Shown: positions 166 to 11,793, counted from the first letter of the stretch. The stretch is 64,000 bases of DNA from Lentisphaerota bacterium (GCA_015061915.1 SUVR01000006.1:1-64000); one strand, 5' to 3'. A program made the numbers and translations. The notes: generated by a model not told the origin, from the sequence alone.

Positions 166-1389
166 TTACATTTTTTGTGTGGGAAGTTGACAGATCTCAC
201 CCCAGGGTGCGGGCGCTTTTCCGAAATCGGGCAGACACCACAGGACGGGGTACGAAGGGGATGTTTTGGGCGCGTCTCCATAACCATCGGTCAGATAGAT
301 CAGGATCTGGGTTTCGGGCAGATTTTTTTCCACATAAGAAAACACCGGTCTGAAATCGGTTCCGCCGCCGCCCCGGATCTTCAGCTGTTTCTCCGGCATG
401 GGAGAATCCGGCGTATAGGTCTGGACGGACTGGATCTTTGCATCACACTGGATCACAGTCAGTTCGTACTCACCGAAACTGCGGATCAGTCCGTTGATCT
501 CTGCCACAAAAAGGTCCAACCCCGCAATGGTGCTTCCGGAGGTATCCAGCGCCACAACCGCGTTGAGGCGGGTGCCGCGACGGCTCTGCAGATACAATCC
601 CTGATGAACAAAGCGTCTGTTGGGCGGCAGCCAGCGGCGACCTCCGTTGAAGCAGGAGGTAACGAACTGTGCCAGTTTCTCCCGCCAGTTGATCCGGGGT
701 TTGCAGAGTGGAGCCACGATCTTTTCCAAATCGCCGGGCAGATTGCCGTATTTCCGCACATATTCACCCCGGGCATCGTTGATCATTTCACGGATGGATT
801 CCGCCGTATCTTTTGAAAACTGCACCTGAAAATCGGCATCAAAGATCTTTTCATTGCCTTTGGCGAAAGAATTGATGTGGTCGCCGGGCTCGTAATGTTC
901 ATCCAGACACTCTTCTTTTCCGTTCAGTTCGTTTCTGTTTTCCTCCTTTTTCAGCCACTCGTAAAGCTGCTCAGCGTTCTCCGTGCTGTGCCACGGCGGA
1001 GGCAGGAGGCAGCCGCTGATCATTTCCATGCCGTTCTCCTTGAGCATCCGGTTGACCTCCATATCGCAGGCAATGTTGAACAGACCGCGATCCCGGTTCT
1101 CCCGGCGGAGGAAGTGCAGATAGACCACATGCCAGATCTCGTGCGCCAGAAGCATAACCCGTTGACCGGGTTTGAGATGATTGTAAAAACCGGCATGGAC
1201 AAAGACGCTGGAGCCATCGGTGCAGGCGGTCTGGCAGCGGCTGTCCCAGACCGGGACCATGCCCAACCGCATAGCAAGCATGCCGATGAAGGGCTGGGCA
1301 ATGAGCAGCGTAACACGATCGCGTGCAAGGGATTGAGCCGCAATGCTTTTCTGTTCTGTTTCGTATTCGTTCGGTTTGCGTACTTCCAT
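166..1389 (-). CDS. HExxH metallopeptidase-like / VWA-like protein (DUF2201 type)
   Basis: A 407-residue protein. Residues 82-90 carry HEIWH, an HExxH zinc-protease motif in the N-terminal half. The C-terminal third looks like a von Willebrand A domain with a MIDAS: DTSGS at about 282-286, GGGGTD at about 340-345 and LTDGYGD near 365. The HExxH plus VWA-like layout matches the family known as DUF2201 (putative metallopeptidase with VWA-like domain), usually encoded beside a MoxR ATPase, as here. The start is placed at the ATG preceded by AAGGAG; an upstream in-frame start would overlap the previous gene. It lies 17 nt after the MoxR gene and is surely cotranscribed. The likely role, by family analogy, is a partner or substrate-recruiting subunit of the ATPase; its substrate is unknown. 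Confidence 0.8.
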   Translation of the reverse strand: MEVRKPNEYETEQKSIAAQSLARDRVTLLIAQPFIGMLAMRLGMVPVWDSRCQTACTDGSSVFVHAGFYNHLKPGQRVMLLAHEIWHVVYLHFLRRENRDRGLFNIACDMEVNRMLKENGMEMISGCLLPPPWHSTENAEQLYEWLKKEENRNELNGKEECLDEHYEPGDHINSFAKGNEKIFDADFQVQFSKDTAESIREMINDARGEYVRKYGNLPGDLEKIVAPLCKPRINWREKLAQFVTSCFNGGRRWLPPNRRFVHQGLYLQSRRGTRLNAVVALDTSGSTIAGLDLFVAEINGLIRSFGEYELTVIQCDAKIQSVQTYTPDSPMPEKQLKIRGGGGTDFRPVFSYVEKNLPETQILIYLTDGYGDAPKTSPSYPVLWCLPDFGKAPAPWGEICQLPTQKM

Positions 1390-1406
1390 TTTGATCTTCT
1401 CCTTTC

Positions 1407-2489
1407 TCAGGCGCTGAAGGTGACGCCGTGAAGCTCCAGCCATTTGCTGTACATGGAGTGGTGATACATCTTTTCCGCCAGTGTATTGCCGCCGGCGGTG
1501 ATCGCTTCCGTCATCAGCAGGGCGGCAAAATCGCTTGGCATGGCGAGGGATACGCGGAAAAATCCATCAAGCAACGCAGCAGATTCCTCCTCCGTTTTTC
1601 CGTGAAGCAGATAGTAGGAGACCGCTGAACACATGGCGTAACGCTGATCTGCTTTTTCAGGAATTTTAATTTTTTTCTTCGGATTCAACAGCATTTCCCT
1701 GATATTTTCACTGTTGCCGAAGATTTTGTGAAACGCCATGAATTCTGCCGCTGCGCCCTTGCCAATCAGCCCGGAGACCGCCGATTCCAACTCCTTGCCG
1801 TTCAGAATCTTGACCATAGAGCTGACTTTTGCCCAGCTGCGGGGAGAGGGCCAACCCCGTTCCAGATCTTCCCCTTCCTGCGAGAAGAGCAGCGCGGGGC
1901 GATACTTGATGAACCCGGTCACGGCGGGGTGGATCCCGTTGTTCTGTGCCCATCTGACCCAATCCTCCGCATCGTTTTCCAATTCCAGGTGCATGAATCT
2001 GTTGGCAAGCGCGCTGGACATGGTGTAAGCGACCGCCCGATCGACAGCCCGATTGCCCGCGCCACAGATGTACCAGCCTTCCGGCACTTTGTAAAGATCG
2101 CCCAGTCTGCGATCCAGAATGATCTCATAGGCAGCGACTTGCAGGGATCTGTCTGCGGAGGTCAGCTCGTCAAAGAGGATGATCCCCTTGCTGTTGGGAT
2201 CTCTGGGCCACTCGGAGGAAACACGCCATTCCACGCCGTCTTGTGTGGGAACAGGCAGACCGCGGACATCCACCGGTTCGCGCTGGGAAAGGCGGATATC
2301 AATGAATCCCACGCCGAACTTTTTGGCAAGATTGCGGATAATGGTGGATTTTCCCACGCCGGGTGCGCCCCAGAGCATGACCGGCGGGATCTCGTCGGCA
2401 GAGAAGTTCCCGGACCAGAAGTTTTCCAGAATGTTGGAGAGAAGTTCATTGGCGCGATCGATCCTGATGACATTTTTTGCTTTGCTCAT
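1407..2489 (-). CDS. MoxR-type AAA+ ATPase
   Basis: A 360-residue P-loop ATPase. Walker A is GAPGVGKST at 41-49, Walker B is ILFDEL at about 104-109, and a GNR sensor-type segment follows near 146. The fold and order match the MoxR/AAA_5 group, which acts as a chaperone-like remodeller of VWA-domain partners. The next gene in the operon encodes such a VWA protein. The start has a good site (AAAGGAG, 8 nt upstream). Its leader contains a motif shared with two neighbouring promoters of the island (2535-2565). Confidence in the family is high; the process served is unknown. Confidence 0.88.
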   Translation of the reverse strand: MSKAKNVIRIDRANELLSNILENFWSGNFSADEIPPVMLWGAPGVGKSTIIRNLAKKFGVGFIDIRLSQREPVDVRGLPVPTQDGVEWRVSSEWPRDPNSKGIILFDELTSADRSLQVAAYEIILDRRLGDLYKVPEGWYICGAGNRAVDRAVAYTMSSALANRFMHLELENDAEDWVRWAQNNGIHPAVTGFIKYRPALLFSQEGEDLERGWPSPRSWAKVSSMVKILNGKELESAVSGLIGKGAAAEFMAFHKIFGNSENIREMLLNPKKKIKIPEKADQRYAMCSAVSYYLLHGKTEEESAALLDGFFRVSLAMPSDFAALLMTEAITAGGNTLAEKMYHHSMYSKWLELHGVTFSA

Positions 2490-2534
2490 TGTTTTTCTCC
2501 TTTCGTATTTTTGTTTGAAATTGTGAGCGTTATA

Positions 2535-2565
2535 CCCTATATGACTTTTTCAAAAAACTTTTTCG
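2535..2565 (-). promoter_or_regulatory. Island promoter-like motif, copy 1
   Basis: On the minus strand this reads AAAAAGTTTTTTGAAAAAG followed by TCATATAGGG, about 45 nt before the MoxR start. Nearly the same string lies before the tandem-AAA gene at 3801-3832. It lacks the TTGACA-N16-TATATT layout of the other promoters in the window. It could be an alternative promoter or an operator; this is inference from repetition and position. Confidence 0.5.
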
Positions 2566-2619
2566 CTATTTTTGAATTTTTTTGCTCTTTTTTTGTTTTT
2601 TTCTCCGTTACGCACAAAA

Positions 2620-3675
2620 TTACAGACTTTTTTTGATGGCTTCCGCCAGCGAATGGAACGAATAATGCTGCAAATTGCCAAAATCCGGGTCGCATCCGGC
2701 ATGGATCAGCGCATCAGAAAGAGCCGTGATCGTTTCGGGAGGATTGACGAACCACTTGGGATCGGCTTCAGCGATCCGGATGAACAGAGCGTGAAAACAG
2801 TTGCACTTGCAACTGTCGATATATTCCCCCGCAAAGGAGCCGGTCTTCTGAATAGCGTAGAGTGCCAGATCCGCCGGTGCGTTCATAATAAAATAAAGAA
2901 CCAGCGTTTCCGGTGCGAGCCGTTTCGTGAGCAGATCCGGTTGAAGTGTGATCACGCGGCGGATAAAATCCCATTTCTTCTGACGGATCTTTTTCCGGAG
3001 GAAATTTGTTGCGCCGGCGGGGTTCATCATGCTGAGCATCACAAAGGTTTCCGCCGATTCCGTTTCATCGCAAATTCTGAAAAGACCATTTTCCACCTCG
3101 CGGACAGGACGTTCCAATTCAGACTGGCGTTTGGTCAGCTCACAGAGCATACACATGGTCTGCCAGTCATATTTCCCGCTGTGAAAAATGTGGGAATAAA
3201 ACCAGTCCAGCGCGCGGCGTCTATCCGGTTGTTCAGGGAAATGGTCCGGATCCCAGAAGCGAATCATTTCCGGACATTTATCCAGCAGGATACTCCAGTG
3301 ACTTGCATTGAGTTTGTTCCAGTCACAGCGGTCCGCCAAACCGGGCAAACAACTCAGCAGGAGCGCCCAGGACGTGCCATCCAGCAGTGCAAGTCTCTGA
3401 TTGGTGACGGTTTCCGGATGATGAGCGAGCAGATGTTCGACTTTGATGGGGCTCATTCTTTTCCAATCGGGAAAATGATTGTGAAGCTGCGGGCGTTTCA
3501 GGATTAGCCAGAAGAGATCGTCTGACGAGAGAGCATCGGCAGGACAAAGTTCCGCAAGTTGAGGTTGCTCGATCAGGATCTTCACCCACTCGCTGCCGGT
3601 GATCATTGCAGCGTTTTCCGGCGCTGCATTGAGAAGATCGATCTTTTTCTGAATTGACATCGTTTTTTCCGGCAT
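2620..3675 (-). CDS. Helical tandem-repeat protein of unknown function
   Basis: A 351-residue protein with no recognised family. From about residue 18 to 140 it is built of five tandem units of about 24 residues with the pattern W..LL...P.l...c.w..l, for example GTSWALLLSCLPGL and ASHWSILLDKCPEM. Such units suggest a helical solenoid used for protein binding. The later part is also helical-looking and may hold more diverged units. The start is the ATG after AGAAAGGAA. It is divergently transcribed from the tandem-AAA gene and has its own copy of the island motif upstream, so it probably belongs to the same system. It may be an adaptor or a substrate sensor; that is inference. Confidence 0.65.
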   Translation of the reverse strand: MPEKTMSIQKKIDLLNAAPENAAMITGSEWVKILIEQPQLAELCPADALSSDDLFWLILKRPQLHNHFPDWKRMSPIKVEHLLAHHPETVTNQRLALLDGTSWALLLSCLPGLADRCDWNKLNASHWSILLDKCPEMIRFWDPDHFPEQPDRRRALDWFYSHIFHSGKYDWQTMCMLCELTKRQSELERPVREVENGLFRICDETESAETFVMLSMMNPAGATNFLRKKIRQKKWDFIRRVITLQPDLLTKRLAPETLVLYFIMNAPADLALYAIQKTGSFAGEYIDSCKCNCFHALFIRIAEADPKWFVNPPETITALSDALIHAGCDPDFGNLQHYSFHSLAEAIKKSL

Positions 3676-3717
3676 CGTGTTTCCTTTCTGTTTTTTTGTT
3701 ATTATGGATCGCACGTG

Positions 3718-3745
3718 TATATATGACCTTTTGAAAAAAATGCGC
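3718..3745 (-). promoter_or_regulatory. Island promoter-like motif, copy 2
   Basis: On the minus strand it reads TTTTTTTCAAAAGG followed by TCATATATACA, about 43 nt before the repeat-protein start. It is the most diverged of the three copies but keeps the T-run, the A-run and TCATATA in the same order. Confidence 0.4.
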
Positions 3746-3800
3746 AAAAAAAGGCGTTTTTGAAACAATTTTCATTTTTTTGCAAAAATTCAGAAAAATT

Positions 3801-3832
3801 CGCAAAAAGTTTTTTTGAAAAGTCATATAGGG
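3801..3832 (+). promoter_or_regulatory. Island promoter-like motif, copy 3
   Basis: Reads AAAAAGTTTTTTTGAAAAG followed by TCATATAGGG, about 55 nt before the tandem-AAA start. It matches copy 1 almost base for base with one-base shifts in the homopolymer runs. The intergenic region 3676-3886 is extremely AT-rich and divergent, so it is the likely control point for both arms of the island. Confidence 0.5.
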
Positions 3833-3886
3833 ATGTAAAAGCGATCATTTTTGAAACAAAAAAACGAAAATTGAAAGGAGAAATCA

Positions 3887-6307
3887 ATGAAAGAAGAAAT
3901 GGAAACGCAGTTCGGAGATGTCATGCCGGAAAAAGAAATCGACACGGAAACATGCAGCTTTGTGGATGATGCAAAAGAGGCGATCCTGAAGCTGGAGGAG
4001 GAACTGGAGGAAGAACGGATCTGGGGCAATAATACCGACTTGTTCTGCAACAGCTTCTGCACCCGTTTTCTGGGCAATCTTCTGGAAAGACTCGGCACCA
4101 CGGAGATCGAAAAAATGGATCTTTTTCAGACAATCCTCAAGTTTTTCACCAAAAGCGAGATCGAAGCCCTTTACAGCGAAATCATGCCGCCTTTTGATGA
4201 ACTGGCACGCTCGGAAATGAACTCCTCTGAAAAAATGCCGGATCTGCTGAAAGGATCCACGCCGTGGGATTATTTCTGCTACTTCAACAAACACATCGGG
4301 ACCCGCACAAAAATGTGGAAAGTCCTTGCCAAAGCGTGCACCGAGCGCTCTTTTGAATTTCTTGACCGCAGAAATTACGGAAAGGATCCCCGTGAGGCAA
4401 GTCTGCTGGAAAAACGTTTTTATGAGCTTCAGGAACTTTTCGGGCTGGAAGACCGGGAAATGGAAATGCTGCTCTGCATTTATCTCTGCCAGCGCGATGT
4501 ATTGGAATTGGGCGATCTCAACCACTTTTCTAACTACAGTGATCCGACGGCAGTGCCGACTCTGGCAAAACTGCTTGGCGTTCAGGTACTTGAGATCGAA
4601 GAGATGCTTCGCCCGGATCGCAATATCAGAAAGTTCGGACTGCTGGACGAGGATATGTGCATTGAAGAATCCTTTTCCTACTATCTGCAGGGAACATCCT
4701 CAGTCCCCCTGACCGATTGTTTCTGGACAAAGTATGAAGGCGCAGCCCTCCCGTGGAAATTTTACGGAAAGACTGTCGAAAAACACGGGGAGATTCTCAA
4801 GCAGATGATCCGCTGCAAAACACCGGATCAGGGCCACTCCGTGCTGCTTTACGGCGTTGCGGGTGCAGGTAAAACAAGTTTTGCCGTCTCGCTCGCCAGA
4901 GAAACGGGGAAAGAAGTTTACTTTATTGCTCACAGAAAGGAAGGTGAACGGAACCAGTGCAGCACCGCTTTCCGTTATGCCGCGCTGGCGGTAGCGCAGC
5001 GTCAGCTGGATCCGCAGAAGTGCATCCTCGTGGTGGATGAGTGCGATAAAATGGTGGAAAATCAGCACCTTCACCACGGCTTTTTCCAGGCGTTGGACTT
5101 GCCGATGATCCAGTCCCGCGACGGCGAGACCAAGGCGCGATTGAACATGGTCATGGATGAAAACTGCCATACTGTCCTCTGGATCTGCAACAGTATGCAG
5201 GATCTGATCGACCCCAGTTCACGCCGCCGCTTCGATTACTCGATCTTCTTTGACGAAATTTCACCCGCAGTACGGAAACAAATCTGGCACAATGTGTTGG
5301 AGCAGTACGCCTGCACGAAAAAAGTTTCGGAGGATTTTCTGCTGAAAGTCAGTCGATCCTGGCATGTCAATCCCGGCGGGATCGCCGTAGCGGTCAGAAA
5401 TGCAGCAGCGGTCTGCCCCGGCGACTGCGGAACTGCGGACTTTGAAGCGGTCCTGATGAACTATTTGCGCGCCCACTGCTCACTGCTGGGGATCCGCGAA
5501 ACGGCGGAAGAAAAATTTGAACCGGCACAGGATTATACGCTGGAAGGACTCAATATCCGCAGCGGGCTCAAGCTGCCCCGTCTCGTTTCCGCTTGCAGAA
5601 AATTTCTGGAGACATTGGAAAAACCGGAAAAAAATCCGGATCAGCCCCGTATGAACCTGCTGCTTTTCGGCGTGCCCGGTTCAGGAAAAACGGAATTTGT
5701 CAAGTTTCTGGCAAAAAAGCTGGGCAAAAGACTGAACGTGAAAAGCGCCGCCGATCTGTTGTCCCAATATGTGGGCGGCACGGAGGAACGTCTGGCAAGT
5801 GCCTTTGACGAGGCGGAAGCCAACGGGGAGATCCTGTTTATTGATGAGGGCGATTCCATGCTGGGCAGTCGCACCAATGCCCGCAATATGTGGGAGGTCA
5901 GTCAGGTCAACACCCTTCTTTCGGAGATGGAACGGTTTCGCGGAATCTTCATTGTGAGCACAAATCTGATCCAGAATCTGGATCCCGCCGCCATTCGCAG
6001 GTTCAATTTCCGCCTTCACTTTGATTATCTGGACAACCACGGGAAAGAGATTTTTTACGAAAACTTCTTTGCCGCGCTGAATCTGCCCGCCCTGACTGCA
6101 GCCGAAAAGAGAAAACTGAATGCGATCGAAAATCTGACACCCTCCGATTTCCGCAACGTACGTCAGCAGTATTTCTATCTGGAAGATGAGGTACTGACCA
6201 ATGGCGAAGTTCTGGAGGCTCTGGCAGCAGAGACCGCCGGAAAAAATGCCGCGGCGGACTACAAAAAACTCGGTGAAACCGCCAGTCGGATCGGATTCGG
6301 CTGCTGA
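3887..6307 (+). CDS. Tandem AAA+ ATPase (two P-loop modules)
   Basis: An 806-residue protein with two AAA+ modules. Module 1 has Walker A GVAGAGKTS near residue 322 and Walker B ILVVDECD near 380. Module 2 has Walker A GVPGSGKTE near 596 and Walker B ILFIDEGDS near 648, with RRFNFR after it as a likely arginine-finger region. The first about 300 residues are mostly helical and not recognised. The layout resembles CDC48/FtsH-like remodellers, in which hexamers unfold or move a substrate, but no protease domain is present. The start has AAAGGAG upstream. It heads a seven-gene run ending at 11669. Both Walker motifs look intact in each module, so both may be active. The substrate is unknown. Confidence 0.8.
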   Translation: MKEEMETQFGDVMPEKEIDTETCSFVDDAKEAILKLEEELEEERIWGNNTDLFCNSFCTRFLGNLLERLGTTEIEKMDLFQTILKFFTKSEIEALYSEIMPPFDELARSEMNSSEKMPDLLKGSTPWDYFCYFNKHIGTRTKMWKVLAKACTERSFEFLDRRNYGKDPREASLLEKRFYELQELFGLEDREMEMLLCIYLCQRDVLELGDLNHFSNYSDPTAVPTLAKLLGVQVLEIEEMLRPDRNIRKFGLLDEDMCIEESFSYYLQGTSSVPLTDCFWTKYEGAALPWKFYGKTVEKHGEILKQMIRCKTPDQGHSVLLYGVAGAGKTSFAVSLARETGKEVYFIAHRKEGERNQCSTAFRYAALAVAQRQLDPQKCILVVDECDKMVENQHLHHGFFQALDLPMIQSRDGETKARLNMVMDENCHTVLWICNSMQDLIDPSSRRRFDYSIFFDEISPAVRKQIWHNVLEQYACTKKVSEDFLLKVSRSWHVNPGGIAVAVRNAAAVCPGDCGTADFEAVLMNYLRAHCSLLGIRETAEEKFEPAQDYTLEGLNIRSGLKLPRLVSACRKFLETLEKPEKNPDQPRMNLLLFGVPGSGKTEFVKFLAKKLGKRLNVKSAADLLSQYVGGTEERLASAFDEAEANGEILFIDEGDSMLGSRTNARNMWEVSQVNTLLSEMERFRGIFIVSTNLIQNLDPAAIRRFNFRLHFDYLDNHGKEIFYENFFAALNLPALTAAEKRKLNAIENLTPSDFRNVRQQYFYLEDEVLTNGEVLEALAAETAGKNAAADYKKLGETASRIGFGC

Positions 6308-6332
6308 ACTCAAAATCAGAAAGGAGCAATTT

Positions 6333-6812
6333 ATGATGGGACAGAATGTATTAGAACGGTTCAGAGAATGGCGAACATTTTTGAGTGGAATGGGCTATGA
6401 ATATGTGCGTCAGGAGGAGGAAGATGGCAGCTTCCGGGCATATTTTATCCAGCCCGCCAAAGATTTGAAACTTGTGCTGCATCTCGGCAGAAGCCGGGAC
6501 CGGATCTGCGCAGATCATACACGAAATTTTAATACAGGATCATATGTCCTTCAGATGCCGCTTCCGGAAGATAAAAATGAATTTGCAGCTGCGGAAGCAC
6601 TGGCGTTCGGCAGTGGAACAGACGGGCATATCTGCAAGGGATGTCCCTGGTTTCGTGTCGCAGGAGCAGATCTGCTCCGCTGTGAAAAAGGAATGAAAAA
6701 TCCGCACGGGATCCTCGGTACCGGCGGCAGAAGCTGGAAAGTCGGCGAACGAGTGCGGTTCCTGCCGAACTGCGACCGGATGGATCTGATGAAAAAATAT
6801 TTCAGCAACTAA
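6333..6812 (+). CDS. Unknown protein with Cys pairs
   Basis: A 159-residue protein of unknown family. A CKGC pair near residue 109 and further cysteines (RCEKG, PNCDRM) in the second half could bind a metal. The start is the first of two adjacent ATGs, preceded by AAAGGAGC. It lies 25 nt after the tandem-AAA gene and 35 nt before the next gene, so it is part of the same transcript. No signal peptide or membrane segment is seen. Confidence 0.55.
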   Translation: MMGQNVLERFREWRTFLSGMGYEYVRQEEEDGSFRAYFIQPAKDLKLVLHLGRSRDRICADHTRNFNTGSYVLQMPLPEDKNEFAAAEALAFGSGTDGHICKGCPWFRVAGADLLRCEKGMKNPHGILGTGGRSWKVGERVRFLPNCDRMDLMKKYFSN

Positions 6813-6847
6813 GAAAAAACAATCAACTTAATAGAAAGGAATCACTT

Positions 6848-7438
6848 ATGGCAAAAACGCTGCAATTTGAACTGGCAGGCAGGCTCTTTGAGTCTGAACC
6901 GGTGAAACTGGACCGGAAAAAGATCTACGGTCACAAAGAGATCGCAGCATTTGATGCAGAGGGGAAAGAGTGCACCCAGTGTCAACTGGATGCCGCCGGG
7001 GAGTTGCTGATCCCCGCCGGAGCAGTCAAGATCGCTTCTCTGGATGAAAACGGAAACTCCATTGAACGTGATGAAATGATCCTGACGGATGCCAAAGGCA
7101 ATCTGCCGGAAAATCATACATCTTCCTTCGAGACGCCGCTGGTGCTGAAGGATACGGTCAGCGATGAGGCGTTTCTTGATCACATCTGGAAAGCTGTTTA
7201 TCAGATCAGCAACCCGGAACTGGCGGAAGCCGTTGGGGACAACATTTATTCCTTCCCCTTCAGTTTCCGCGGCGGGCACTCGCTGGATGAAGGTTTCCTG
7301 CTGGCTGCGGAAGGCGTGTGTTTTCTCTTTTCCGGCGAAAAAGTGGAGTTCCCCTTACTCGATGCACCGGATGCAGGAGTACTTGAAGATGAAGAGGATA
7401 ACAACGAAGATGATCTTTTGGAATTTGACTTGATGTAA
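6848..7438 (+). CDS. Unknown protein with acidic tail
   Basis: A 196-residue soluble protein not assigned to a family. The N-terminal half (MAKTLQFELAGRLFE..) looks beta-rich. The C-terminus is strongly acidic (EDEEDNNEDD), which is common in proteins that mimic or avoid nucleic acid or that serve as adaptors. It has an AAAGGAA site and sits inside the island operon, 9 nt before the next gene. Confidence 0.5.
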   Translation: MAKTLQFELAGRLFESEPVKLDRKKIYGHKEIAAFDAEGKECTQCQLDAAGELLIPAGAVKIASLDENGNSIERDEMILTDAKGNLPENHTSSFETPLVLKDTVSDEAFLDHIWKAVYQISNPELAEAVGDNIYSFPFSFRGGHSLDEGFLLAAEGVCFLFSGEKVEFPLLDAPDAGVLEDEEDNNEDDLLEFDLM

Positions 7439-7447
7439 AGGAGAAAA

Positions 7448-8080
7448 ATGATGCGTAAGATCAACATTACCAATGAAAAACGGCGCGATGCCCAGGTCGG
7501 CTTTGAGTTGAATCGTCCGCCGAAGATCTTTCACTACCGCACGCCGGCAGGAAAGAATGTCGCTTCCAAACGATATCTGCGCTACTCCAGCGAAACCACG
7601 CCGGAAAAACTTCTGGATCTGCCGGATCTGGAAAACGCTCTGCTGCAAAAGGATCCGGAAGTGGAAATGGAGCTTGCCGGCAAAGAACTGGAAGATCTTT
7701 CCCGGGTTTATACAGCGGCGGATGGCGGAATCATCTATTCCGCGCAGCTGATGGAGAAGATCTTTGCCCCGGACGGCAGCGAAAAGGAATGCCGCCCGGC
7801 TGTTATCCAGTTCGCCAATATTGCCGATGAAGATATGCCGCTGCTCTGGACCGGAAAGCAGTTCCCCAAAAAACAGGCGTTGCGGAAATTTGTATTCAGC
7901 CGGACTTATCAGTTGCGCCATATCAACGGGCTTACCTTCGATTTTCTTTATGAAATGGCAAAGAAACTCAGCGAAAGCAACACCCTGATGCTGATCGGAA
8001 GCGGTCCCAAGGGGAACGCCCCGCTGGTGATCAGCAACAACGGCACGCCTTACCGGGGATTTCTGGAGGGTCGTATTTAG
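7448..8080 (+). CDS. Unknown protein
   Basis: A 210-residue protein of unknown family. It lacks membrane segments and cysteine motifs. A glycine-rich segment (LIGSGPKGNAPLV) near the C-terminus resembles a loop in beta-rich domains but is not a P-loop. A strong AAAGGAG site precedes the ATG. It is followed by a 59-nt gap before the ligase gene with no obvious promoter or terminator, so it is probably cotranscribed. Confidence 0.5.
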   Translation: MMRKINITNEKRRDAQVGFELNRPPKIFHYRTPAGKNVASKRYLRYSSETTPEKLLDLPDLENALLQKDPEVEMELAGKELEDLSRVYTAADGGIIYSAQLMEKIFAPDGSEKECRPAVIQFANIADEDMPLLWTGKQFPKKQALRKFVFSRTYQLRHINGLTFDFLYEMAKKLSESNTLMLIGSGPKGNAPLVISNNGTPYRGFLEGRI

Positions 8081-8139
8081 GGCGAACGTTTCTGCCTGCT
8101 TCTGCACTTGACCAATCTTGAACTGAAAGGAATCTGAAT

Positions 8140-9504
8140 ATGAATGAAAAACTGAAAGATTTTTCCCTGAAAGCAAAGAATTACAAAAAACGGATCGCCG
8201 GTTGTTTCATGCTGGTGGAGCCGGATCTGCTGAAAAAAAGACTCGCCGGCAAAACCTATGCCGTCACCCGCAAGATCGATGGTCTGATGCAGTTGCTGAT
8301 GTACGAAAACGGCAAAGCGTATGCAGCCGGTTCCACCGGTATGATCCGGGAAGATCTTCCTTGTCTGGAAGAATTTGCATCGATCCTGAAACAGAAAGGG
8401 GTGAAATCGGCTCTGGTCGCAGCTGAACTTTATGTGCCGTCCCCCGATGGCCGCCCCAGATGCTATGATGTCAATTCGGCATTGGGCGAAAACGGGGATG
8501 TTGCCAAGTGCCGCCTTGCGCCCTTTGATCTGCTGGAACTGGATGGAGAAGAAGTGACGGCTTCTCACTATCAGGAGATCCACCGGCAGTTGAGCGCGTT
8601 GTTCGGGGCTTCTGCGCACATCACGCCCGTTGAGATGCGCGTGGTGAACAGTAAGGAAGAAGTTATGGAGATTTTTGAGGAGTGGGTCGGTGTTGAAAAT
8701 GCGGAAGGACTGGTCGTTCACTCCGAATGTCCGATCATCTGGAAGATCAAACCCAGACACACCATTGATGCAGTCATTGTGGGTTACAGCATGGAAGAAG
8801 GAGAGGTCCGGAATCTTCTGATGGCAGTTCGGGATGAAAACGGTATGTTCCGTATCTTCGGCAAATGTGCCAACGGGTTCAGCGATGAGGAAAGAAAAGC
8901 CCTGCCGGAAAATCTGAAACCGTGTAAATCCAACTATATCTATGTGGACGAAAATCAGCTGGCGTTCCGGATGGTCGAACCGGAGGTTGTCCTGGAAGTT
9001 TCTGTGACAGATCTGCTTACCGAAAATTCTGCCGGAAAGGAACGAAAAAATCCGTTGATCTCTTGGGATAACGGAATCTGGAATCCTGCCGGAATTGTGC
9101 CGGGCGTGTCGGTTCTGGGGATAAAAAACGAACGTTTCAGACCGGATAAATGTTGCAATCAGAGTGACATCCGCACAACTCAGCTTTCGGATATTGCCCC
9201 CTTTGCAACAGCGGAACTGCCGAAAAAATTACCGGAAAGCACGTTGCTTGACCGCCGTGTCTTCCGCAAGACATCCGGGGAAAAAGTGTTCATCCAGAAG
9301 TTTCTGATCTGGGCGAGCAACAAGGCTGACTTCGGCTACGGGAAGTACATTTTTTATCACACGGATTACAGTTCATCCCGGAAAGAGCCGCTCAAACGGG
9401 ATCTGAAGATCGCCGTCACCGAAGAACAGGTCCGCCGGTTCATGGAGCGGGCGATCGCTGAAAATGTCAAGAAAAATTATATGGAAGTGGAGCTTTGTGC
9501 ATAA
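8140..9504 (+). CDS. ATP-dependent DNA/RNA ligase family protein
   Basis: A 454-residue member of the covalent nucleotidyltransferase superfamily. Motif I is KIDG at 45-48, with Lys45 the expected AMP-accepting residue. Motif III-like AAELY is at 94-98, motif IV AEGLVV at 188-193, and motif V WKIKP at 201-205 followed by DAVIVGY. This is the order seen in ATP-dependent DNA ligases and RNA ligases. The region after about residue 220 fits an OB-fold followed by an unassigned tail of about 150 residues. By family, it would seal nicks in DNA or RNA through an adenylated intermediate. Whether it prefers DNA or RNA cannot be told here. It overlaps the next gene by one base. Confidence 0.75.
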   Translation: MNEKLKDFSLKAKNYKKRIAGCFMLVEPDLLKKRLAGKTYAVTRKIDGLMQLLMYENGKAYAAGSTGMIREDLPCLEEFASILKQKGVKSALVAAELYVPSPDGRPRCYDVNSALGENGDVAKCRLAPFDLLELDGEEVTASHYQEIHRQLSALFGASAHITPVEMRVVNSKEEVMEIFEEWVGVENAEGLVVHSECPIIWKIKPRHTIDAVIVGYSMEEGEVRNLLMAVRDENGMFRIFGKCANGFSDEERKALPENLKPCKSNYIYVDENQLAFRMVEPEVVLEVSVTDLLTENSAGKERKNPLISWDNGIWNPAGIVPGVSVLGIKNERFRPDKCCNQSDIRTTQLSDIAPFATAELPKKLPESTLLDRRVFRKTSGEKVFIQKFLIWASNKADFGYGKYIFYHTDYSSSRKEPLKRDLKIAVTEEQVRRFMERAIAENVKKNYMEVELCA

Positions 9505-10604
9505 TGACAGCAGTACAACCGAATTTTACCACGCCGGTTACGATCCAGCCGGACAAACTGAACAATTTCTGCCGCCGTTTTGAACTGGCAAAGATCAAAC
9601 TCTCGGAATTGGAGCCGATCGTACAGAAAACGGAGGAGACCCATACCCTTGCCGGTGTCCGTGTGGGGATCGATGCTTTTCATGTTTCCCCACGCTTTCT
9701 CCGGAGTCTGATGAGCCTCTTTGATTTTACGGAAAAAATCTTCAAATACTTTACGCCGGATGAACTCTTTGAACGGATCATCAAACGGCATGAAGACAAA
9801 CCCGTGCAGGTCTGCATTGATCAGAAAGAAAAGGCCATCCTTGCCGTGACGGGAAGCGATAACCACCTTTTCCCCCTTGAGAAGGTCGTTGATGCGGTCC
9901 AGCAGAATGAAAAACTCCATACGGTCCGCTACCGCCCGAAGAGCGGTCTGCTGGAAGCGGTCATTGATCTGCCGAACCAGTGGAATATGCGTGGAGACAG
10001 CGCTTATCAGGGGCGTATGCGGTTCAGCACGCCGGTGGATTGCTGGGGCGAAAGCCGTCTTACTCTCGGCACGATCCGGGAGATCTGTTCCAACGGCGCC
10101 GTGGTGACCAAAGATGTATATGCCAGCAAGGTCATTGTGGAAAAAGAACACGGGACCCACCTGCGTCATCTGCTGGAAACCTTCCGCAATGATCGTGCGT
10201 TTGCAGCGATGCAAAAACGTCTTCAGGAGGCCCGCACCATTCAGGTCAGTGCTGCCGAGTACCTGAAAGCCAGCCAGCTTTTCCTGCTTCACGGCGGATA
10301 TGCGGCAGAACAGATCGTTGCACATCTGGAAGAGTTTGCCGGCTACCCGGAACAGCAGTACCGGTGCGATTCGTTTGAAAACATCCCTCCCGCACGCCGC
10401 AGGGACCTGCCGGTCAACTTGAGCCTGCTCAATATGCTCAATATGATCAGCGAGATCATGACTCATCACCAGCAGGAAGATGGCTCCGATCTGGAAAACT
10501 TCTACACTGCTCTGATGACAAAAAAGACGGATCTGGAAGATGTTTACACCATTCATCAGCCGGTTAAGGATCTGTTTTTCAATGATTTGCTTCTGGAGGC
10601 ATAA
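9504..10604 (+). CDS. DUF932-like phage/plasmid-type protein
   Basis: A 366-residue protein. It carries LGTIREICSNGAVV near residue 195, resembling the conserved R-x-x-C-x-N segment of DUF932 proteins, which are common on phages and plasmids and have no settled function. The assignment is by motif only. The ATG overlaps the ligase stop (TAATG), and its stop abuts the helicase ATG, so the three genes are translationally linked. It lacks a signal peptide. If DUF932 is right, the island is likely derived from a mobile element. Confidence 0.5.
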   Translation: MTAVQPNFTTPVTIQPDKLNNFCRRFELAKIKLSELEPIVQKTEETHTLAGVRVGIDAFHVSPRFLRSLMSLFDFTEKIFKYFTPDELFERIIKRHEDKPVQVCIDQKEKAILAVTGSDNHLFPLEKVVDAVQQNEKLHTVRYRPKSGLLEAVIDLPNQWNMRGDSAYQGRMRFSTPVDCWGESRLTLGTIREICSNGAVVTKDVYASKVIVEKEHGTHLRHLLETFRNDRAFAAMQKRLQEARTIQVSAAEYLKASQLFLLHGGYAAEQIVAHLEEFAGYPEQQYRCDSFENIPPARRRDLPVNLSLLNMLNMISEIMTHHQQEDGSDLENFYTALMTKKTDLEDVYTIHQPVKDLFFNDLLLEA

Positions 10605-11669
10605 ATGAAGATCGAACACAGAGAATATCAGCAGCGCAGCATCGAAAAAGCGTTGGAACATTTCCGTAACGGCAGCAAATCTGTCCTGCTGGAAGCTCCC
10701 ACCGGGTCCGGCAAGACAGTCATGGGCTTGAAGATCGTGCAGAGCTTGATGCAGGAGGCTGCCGGAGAAAAACTTTCCTGTGCCTGGGTCGCACCGCGGC
10801 ATTATCTGCTCAATCAACTGCTGGAATCCAACAGTTCTTTCGACCTGCCGATCAAGCCGGTTTCCATGTTCACAAAGCCGGAGAATGCGGAACATTTCGA
10901 TATTGTGGTCATTGATGAAGCACACCACGAGGCGACCTCCAGTTTCATCAATCTCTATACGCAGATGCGCCCGAAATATCTTCTGGGACTTTCCGCCACG
11001 CCCCTGCGGACCGATAAGATCAAGCTCGCTTTTTCCGCAACGGTAAGCGAGTGCAATATCCACCAGCTGATCCGGGATGGATATTTGTGTAAATTCAATT
11101 CATACATCATTGACAGCTTTACGCCGGAAACGGTGGCGGAGCACTACTTACGGCAGGAAGATTTGTGGGGCAAGACACTCGTTTTCATGCCGACGCTGGA
11201 GGAATGTGCCCGTTTTCAATCCCTGATCCGGCATGCGGGCAGAGACTGCCTGTTCATCCGGAGCGGGAACGATGCTGCCCGGGAACAGTTTGAACAGGGT
11301 GCGGCACCTCTGGCGGTCAACTGCCAATTGCTGACGGAAGGTTTTGATATGCCACAGCTGCAGACCGTGTTTGTACGTAAGTCCGGCAGACTCCCCATGA
11401 TCCAGATGGCAGGGCGCATCCTGCGAAATCATCCGGGAAAGCGGATCGCCAACATCGTGCAGCCGAAAAACACACCATTTCCTGCAAAAAAAATGGCAGA
11501 ACCGGAACAGATCCTGCACTGGCGGAAGGACCGTTTTGTTGTCCTGAACGGCACAAGCAACATCCTCTGTCTCACGTTGCGTGAAACATTGAAACGGCGA
11601 AAAAAACTCAAAGAAGAAGATCCACCATTGATCCGCGAATATGACCAGATCTTCTATGTATCTGTGTAA
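10605..11669 (+). CDS. Superfamily 2 DEAH helicase
   Basis: A compact 354-residue SF2 helicase. Motif I is APTGSGKT at 31-38, motif II DEAH at 104-107, motif III SATP at 130-133, and motif VI QMAGRILR near 270. A Q-like segment (REYQQRSIEKAL) precedes motif I. The protein is close to the minimal two-RecA-domain core, with no accessory domains, like the RAD3/UvrB-type or ResIII helicases of mobile elements. It would unwind or translocate on nucleic acid with ATP. It starts on the base after the previous stop codon and ends the island operon; no clear T-tract terminator follows. Confidence 0.82.
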   Translation: MKIEHREYQQRSIEKALEHFRNGSKSVLLEAPTGSGKTVMGLKIVQSLMQEAAGEKLSCAWVAPRHYLLNQLLESNSSFDLPIKPVSMFTKPENAEHFDIVVIDEAHHEATSSFINLYTQMRPKYLLGLSATPLRTDKIKLAFSATVSECNIHQLIRDGYLCKFNSYIIDSFTPETVAEHYLRQEDLWGKTLVFMPTLEECARFQSLIRHAGRDCLFIRSGNDAAREQFEQGAAPLAVNCQLLTEGFDMPQLQTVFVRKSGRLPMIQMAGRILRNHPGKRIANIVQPKNTPFPAKKMAEPEQILHWRKDRFVVLNGTSNILCLTLRETLKRRKKLKEEDPPLIREYDQIFYVSV

Positions 11670-11764: not shown

Positions 11765-11793
11765 TTGATATTTGTGCGAAAGTGTGCTACATT
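11765..11793 (+). promoter_or_regulatory. Sigma70-type promoter of Gfo/Idh gene
   Basis: TTGATA, 17-nt spacer, TACATT. The predicted start lies near 11800, giving a leader of about 60 nt that ends in AAGGAGG before the ATG at 11859. Confidence 0.65.

Follow-up and report, generated by a model that had tools for sequence, protein, structure and literature searches.

Do the ten genes packed at the end of this contig form a single functional unit, and if so, what might it do? Contig C21, one of 31 in a 2.49-Mb genome, opens with the window, i.e., the whole 64-kb stretch of DNA that was analysed; the island of ten genes spans positions 166–11669, next to a gene at 11772 which, from our own reading of its sequence, we take to be of the Gfo/Idh type. 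Because the window starts at the contig end, the island may extend leftwards. The initial annotation had described ten genes with intact motifs; all of these ORFs were found and the domain calls made for A, B, D, H and J hold in Pfam. In window coordinates, the island comprises:

166–1389, minus strand: A, DUF2201 protein with a HExxH metallopeptidase-like domain and a VWA domain (Pfam PF13203 and PF09967; PHROG 1314; ORF open to 1443)
1407–2489, minus strand: B, MoxR-type AAA+ ATPase (Pfam AAA_5/AAA_3; PHROG 1297)
2538–2557, minus strand: private promoter-like motif TTTTTTGAAAAAGTCATATA, upstream of B-A (motif scan)
2620–3675, minus strand: C, helical-repeat protein, single copy in the window's genome
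3720–3739, minus strand: private promoter-like motif, upstream of C (motif scan)
3810–3829, plus strand: private promoter-like motif, upstream of D and the D-J arm (motif scan)
3887–6307, plus strand: D, tandem Cdc48-like AAA+ unfoldase with a ClpP-docking-type tail, C-terminus SRIGFGC (Pfam, sequence comparison)
6330–6812, plus strand: E, small cysteine-containing protein, no family match
6848–7438, plus strand: F, conserved protein, no family match, with homologs accompanying G-H-I-J in L014 and L019
7448–8080, plus strand: G, conserved protein, no family match, with homologs in relatives
8140–9504, plus strand: H, ATP-dependent DNA-ligase-like protein with an extra conserved C-terminal domain (Pfam)
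9495–10604, plus strand: I, DUF932-like protein (predicted fold)
10605–11669, plus strand: J, minimal SF2 helicase, XPB/RadD/type I restriction-like (Pfam ResIII/DEAD/Helicase_C)

The A protein matches the DUF2201_N metallopeptidase-like and DUF2201 VWA-like families (2.5e-34 and 9e-26, respectively) and carries the motifs LLAHEIWH (HExxH) and DTSGST (MIDAS). D comprises two AAA domains (Pfam, 5.7e-38), and H scores above the cut-offs of DNA_ligase_A_M (PF01068) and DNA_ligase_A_C (PF04679), with the RKIDG motif conserved. No Pfam match was obtained for C, E, F, G and I, and E, F and G have no recognised fold, the structure model of G (pLDDT 38) having been discarded. Gene A probably starts near 1389; thus, among the gene overlaps described initially, the 37-bp one between A and B probably arises only from the choice of start codon. 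The most likely start of E is at 6330/6333. In several relatives, repeat proteins akin to C are encoded close to the block, and F-, G- and H-like proteins may be present in gammaproteobacteria too.

To what extent do these genes belong together? The genomes compared are mostly MAGs with short contigs and include 137 genomes of the order, with the window's own genome as G000, and a partial sample of the phylum. The relatives named here are Lentisphaeria MAGs, several of them from rumen or gut samples; genes outside the window were called by a simple ORF finder, and for several co-occurrence figures the loci were picked by the presence of one of the genes. We found that the island is a mosaic of recurring modules, of which the whole set was seen once. 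I is encoded in 11/137 genomes of the order, five further genomes outside the order within the phylum sample and one Desulfobulbus MAG. At 18/18 loci, covering Lentisphaeria, two other families of the phylum and one Desulfobulbus MAG, it is followed by J on the same strand, at a spacing of −8 to +59 bp in the 18 loci measured, and the trees of both proteins match (r = 0.96, a value reached in 0/2000 permutations). The F-G-H-I-J module is contiguous in G000, G097 and G030 only (3/137 genomes of the order, two families), while D is present in 40/137. Recurrence as a block, the check proposed initially, was seen for sub-blocks, which keep their order in other, unrelated genomes, but not for the full ten-gene set, which was found in the window only. 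The initial annotation had named as its counter-case homologs that are scattered and never co-located, and the side-by-side I-J pairs and contiguous F-G-H-I-J runs contradict it.

A chance neighbourhood of independent modules would account for a full set that occurs only once and for the many genomes in which MoxR-VWA and D are each found on their own. Yet, MoxR-VWA adjoins D in 5/49 D loci and D adjoins I-J in 6/18 I-J loci, and a private motif that is absent elsewhere in the genome is common to both arms. As the sub-blocks recur in the same order and each of the three transcription units has the 20-bp motif ahead of it, the island appears to be more than chance, and we regard a fortuitous arrangement as very unlikely.

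The I protein of the window shares 70% identity with that of G097, which belongs to a different family, and ~30–34% with those of G030, G036 and G031 from its own family or genus. The closer relation across families argues for horizontal spread. No tRNA that could serve as an insertion site was found in the first 30 kb of the window, and the base composition shows no clear step at the border of the island. The flanking gene K, taken as an anchor in the search for an empty site, is kept in 14/36 family genomes, its neighbours being without synteny, and the left flank of the window is the contig end. Descent from a phage or plasmid replication module, the other counter-case named initially, would fit the matches of A and B to phage families (PHROG 1314 and 1297) and the fact that DUF932-like proteins are common in phages. 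However, homologs close to A-B (up to 63%) come from bacteria, so that by sequence the pair appears bacterial rather than phage-derived, and the island contains no structural or integrase genes. At the sensitivity used, no relatives of I, G and H were detected in phage records or IMG/VR, nor relatives of I, G and F in plasmids, where H gave LigD-like matches only. We rejected this origin since no homologous cluster occurs in the phages or plasmids searched, and consider a remnant of this kind extremely unlikely.

What, then, connects the two arms? B, C and D each have TTTTTTNAAAARGTCATATA ~44–57 bp before their start codon, pointing outward. Elsewhere in the 64-kb window the 20-bp motif is absent at ≤3 mismatches (0.01 expected), and in the whole genome its only three sites at ≤1 mismatch are those in the island; at ≤3 mismatches, the genome contains 37 sites compared to 35 for a reversed control pattern. 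Since the motif is private to the island and common to all three transcription units, both arms look like one regulon, with the motif as a candidate promoter or operator element. Seven copies precede genes of the G097 block; besides these, one weak copy was found, before F in G030.

In turn, several relatives link the same genes to sigma54. With a weight matrix approximated from the known TGGCACG-N4-TTGCW consensus, and a score of ≥15.5 defining a strong site, such sites lie directly upstream of D in 16/48 relatives' loci and upstream of I in L025, L050 and L054, the overall density being one per 42 kb of strand. RtcR-domain activators adjoin D or I-J in six loci (L051, L052, L053, L158, L174, and L184; Pfam was run for one of the six). 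The window, by comparison, has no site ≥15.5 in its 64 kb and its genome no match to RtcR (PF06956), which excludes RtcR as a direct regulator here. For the same reasons, it seems that in this genome the private motif has taken the place of the sigma54/RtcR wiring.

The sigma54/RtcR link in relatives hints at which stress might induce the module, and it could indicate RNA rather than DNA damage. The genes might then constitute a response akin to Rtc, in which cleaved RNA or stalled ribonucleoprotein would be the target of D, I and J, and H would join RNA. The RtcR-domain activators at the six loci are consistent with this, as is PMC7790460, in which tRNA fragments ending in a cyclic phosphate are the signal for RtcR. 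Against it, that work also ties RtcR activation to DNA damage, after which such fragments build up as well. Some relatives resemble the Rtc operon (RtcR-RtcA-RtcB) in combining an RtcR-type activator and sigma54 promoters with D or I-J, but the island lacks rtcA and rtcB and its genome lacks RtcR. Moreover, among proteins of solved structure, the nearest relatives of J include the DNA translocases RadD, XPBII and LlaGI, and those of H are DNA ligases, which makes DNA the likelier substrate. An RNA-damage response is accordingly unlikely.

Several observations concern regulators in relatives. The 'RtcR' tblastn matches beside many D genes proved to come from another sigma54 activator, one that lacks the RtcR domain. 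A second kind of activator for sigma54 was seen near D or I-J at 13 loci (L146:11798-13405, L160:7100-8578, L161:2654-4147, L178:4555-6057, L050:17498-19054, and eight others); its N-terminal region of ~190 residues starts like TLILTGWGWKDYACAAALALRH, matches nothing in Pfam and is possibly a new sensor domain. A sigma70-family gene is located near I-J at L051:5971-7302 and L052:12071-13522, and both loci also contain RtcR, D and clpP.

The initial assignment of I as DUF932-like agrees with its predicted fold but not with profile searches, as neither I nor its L037 homolog matches the Pfam DUF932 profile. The AlphaFold model (mean pLDDT 83, pTM 0.74) finds in Foldseek, as best matches, predicted viral/phage DUF932-type structures at E-values of 5.7e-13 and 1.2e-11 (TM ~0.55–0.59), the latter being a named DUF932 model; the likeness is thus one between predicted models, and against the PDB nothing was found at E≤0.001. 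I differs from the DUF932 proteins of phages and plasmids, which it resembles in predicted fold, in falling below Pfam detection, in its invariable pairing with J and, in some relatives, in ankyrin fusions. Homologs of ~500 residues with N-terminal ankyrin-like repeats, as judged by eye, were noted in L020, L021, L022, L023, L024 and L025. To our knowledge, no function has been assigned to DUF932-like proteins, and the constant partner J opens a way into their role. J is a distant relative of the RadD/XPBII/LlaGI helicases without extra domains, whereas H, a distant relative of LigD-type ligases, has an additional conserved C-terminal domain.

Other genes were observed around these blocks in relatives. 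Immediately ahead of I-J, at L016:6498-7160, lies a gene for a SprT-like (Spartan-type) protease, small PLD-family nuclease-like genes lie near D or I-J (L100:15904-16425, L145, L154, L177, L182, and L050:16741-17259), and proteins that by eye look like DUF262/GmrSD are encoded near I-J blocks (L014:3497-6316 and L050:12612-16744).

As for D, its best matches are Cdc48/VCP, and scores for ClpX and ClpA are far under their cut-offs. Both Walker motifs are kept and the YVG pore loop is conserved in the second ring (D2). We found that the protein terminates in [ILMVF]GF in 51/56 complete D proteins, as opposed to 0/768 other proteins of the same loci. In the first set this end occurs in 38/40, and the remaining two carry IGL or an IGF placed nine residues before the C-terminus; in a distant set, a looser pattern recovers the tail in 17/20. 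The linker before the tail varies in length and sequence. The D of the window ends with SRIGFGC and so contains a docking tripeptide of the form [ILV]G[FL]. In addition, 7/69 loci from several families have clpP as a same-strand neighbour of D, its products matching PF00574 at E ~1e-82 where tested; no clpP is next to D in the window. The tail together with the clpP linkage leads us to infer from sequence that D feeds ClpP, which makes it a predicted ClpP partner.

ClpX and ClpA dock on ClpP via IGF/IGL in internal loops. Loops with conserved tripeptides are described in part of PMC8745299. D resembles ClpXP, ClpAP and ClpCP in that it is a ring unfoldase, has an [IL]G[FL] tripeptide by which it is predicted to dock on ClpP and, in seven loci, is encoded beside clpP; unlike these, it is a tandem Cdc48-like AAA protein, not of the Hsp100/ClpX type, and a variable linker places its tripeptide at the very C-terminus instead of in an internal loop. 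With Cdc48/VCP and PAN it shares the classical AAA fold, the YVG pore loop of D2 and a predicted mode of docking by a C-terminal tail, as with HbYX, yet the tail itself is of the ClpP type, not HbYX. Cdc48-type ATPases feed the 20S proteasome, and all ClpP partners known to us belong to the ClpX/Hsp100 branches. We found no open-access paper that describes a Cdc48-type ATPase with a ClpP tripeptide at its C-terminus. It may be, although we would not yet count on it, that D stands for a class of ClpP protease, widespread yet undescribed, in which a Cdc48-type tandem unfoldase docks by a C-terminal [ILMV]GF tail, and that D and the obligate DUF932-like/SF2-helicase pair together make up the core of a new, inducible system which clears and repairs, or attacks, protein-bound DNA. 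If true, such an ATPase would cross the line between Hsp100-ClpP and Cdc48-20S. A protein with the look of pentapeptide repeats, as judged by eye, is encoded ahead of the ~770-residue form of D in four genomes, at L156, L157, L162 and L169.

How might the island work? Our leading reading, which is plausible but still tentative, is that of a horizontally spread, inducible island coupling protein unfolding and degradation to DNA processing. A stress signal would switch on all three transcription units via the common private promoter element, a task that in relatives would fall to sigma54 promoters with RtcR-type or other activators. D, as a tandem AAA+ ring, would thread proteins and dock on ClpP by its C-terminal IGF tail, comparable to the internal IGF loop of ClpX, while the MoxR protein B and the VWA/HExxH protein A would provide a second remodelling machine. 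C is a possible substrate adaptor, a role that would suit both C and the ankyrin fusions of I as these are repeat proteins. I would bind nucleic acid or position J, which would translocate on DNA, and the ligase H, along with F and G, would seal breaks. As a net effect, damaged or foreign DNA would be freed of proteins and then processed. Against this reading count the missing clpP beside D and the missing strong sigma54 site in the window, the missing RtcR gene, the MoxR-VWA modules found without D or I-J, the three proteins without a recognised fold and the possible RNA signal behind the RtcR linkage. Overall, the observations of the initial annotation were confirmed and its interpretation is partly supported: the set looks like a real, so far undescribed damage-response or anti-invader system, genome maintenance or repair being slightly favoured over defence.

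In the case of anti-phage or anti-plasmid defence, I-J, with the ligase, would recognise and process invader DNA, and the AAA machines would control activation or degrade invader proteins. The patchy, horizontally spread distribution suits such a role, as do the resemblance of J to PbeA, Dnd and type I restriction helicases and that of the D2 AAA domain of D to IetA (106 bits vs. a curated cut-off of 510); unlike in IetAS, D has two AAA domains and no subtilisin-like partner is found among the ten genes. RtcR homologs stand at the head of predicted defence superoperons in a section of PMC11090510, and PMC7159879 places MoxR-VWA pairs at the core of predicted conflict systems. In line with the initial statement, we found no named system with this set: PADLOC and NCBIfam gave partial domain matches only. 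The island encodes no recognised nuclease or toxin domain either, and its ligase suggests repair, not destruction. Defence is possible but rather doubtful, and we place repair-oriented coupling of unfolding and DNA processing slightly ahead of it.

The place of the MoxR-VWA pair in the island, as proposed initially, stands insofar as the pair is present according to Pfam. Yet, A-B proved to be an independent, often multi-copy module, with pairs in 28/137 genomes and up to eight DUF2201 matches in a single genome; MoxR-VWA is thus an exchangeable module and no fixed part of the set. The MoxR plus VWA core is shared with the MoxR-vWA ternary conflict systems (VMAP, iSTAND, FtsH, beta-propeller), but the VWA protein of the island belongs to the DUF2201 type and also carries a HExxH domain. 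No island gene matches a model for such a third component, C having no Pfam match, and among open-access papers we found none that pairs MoxR with DUF2201. In five loci (L097, L098, L099, L103, and L104), a gene for a zinc-ribbon UvrD-type helicase precedes A-B-related pairs in the order helicase-MoxR-VWA; L104 is also included in the count of MoxR-VWA modules adjoining D.
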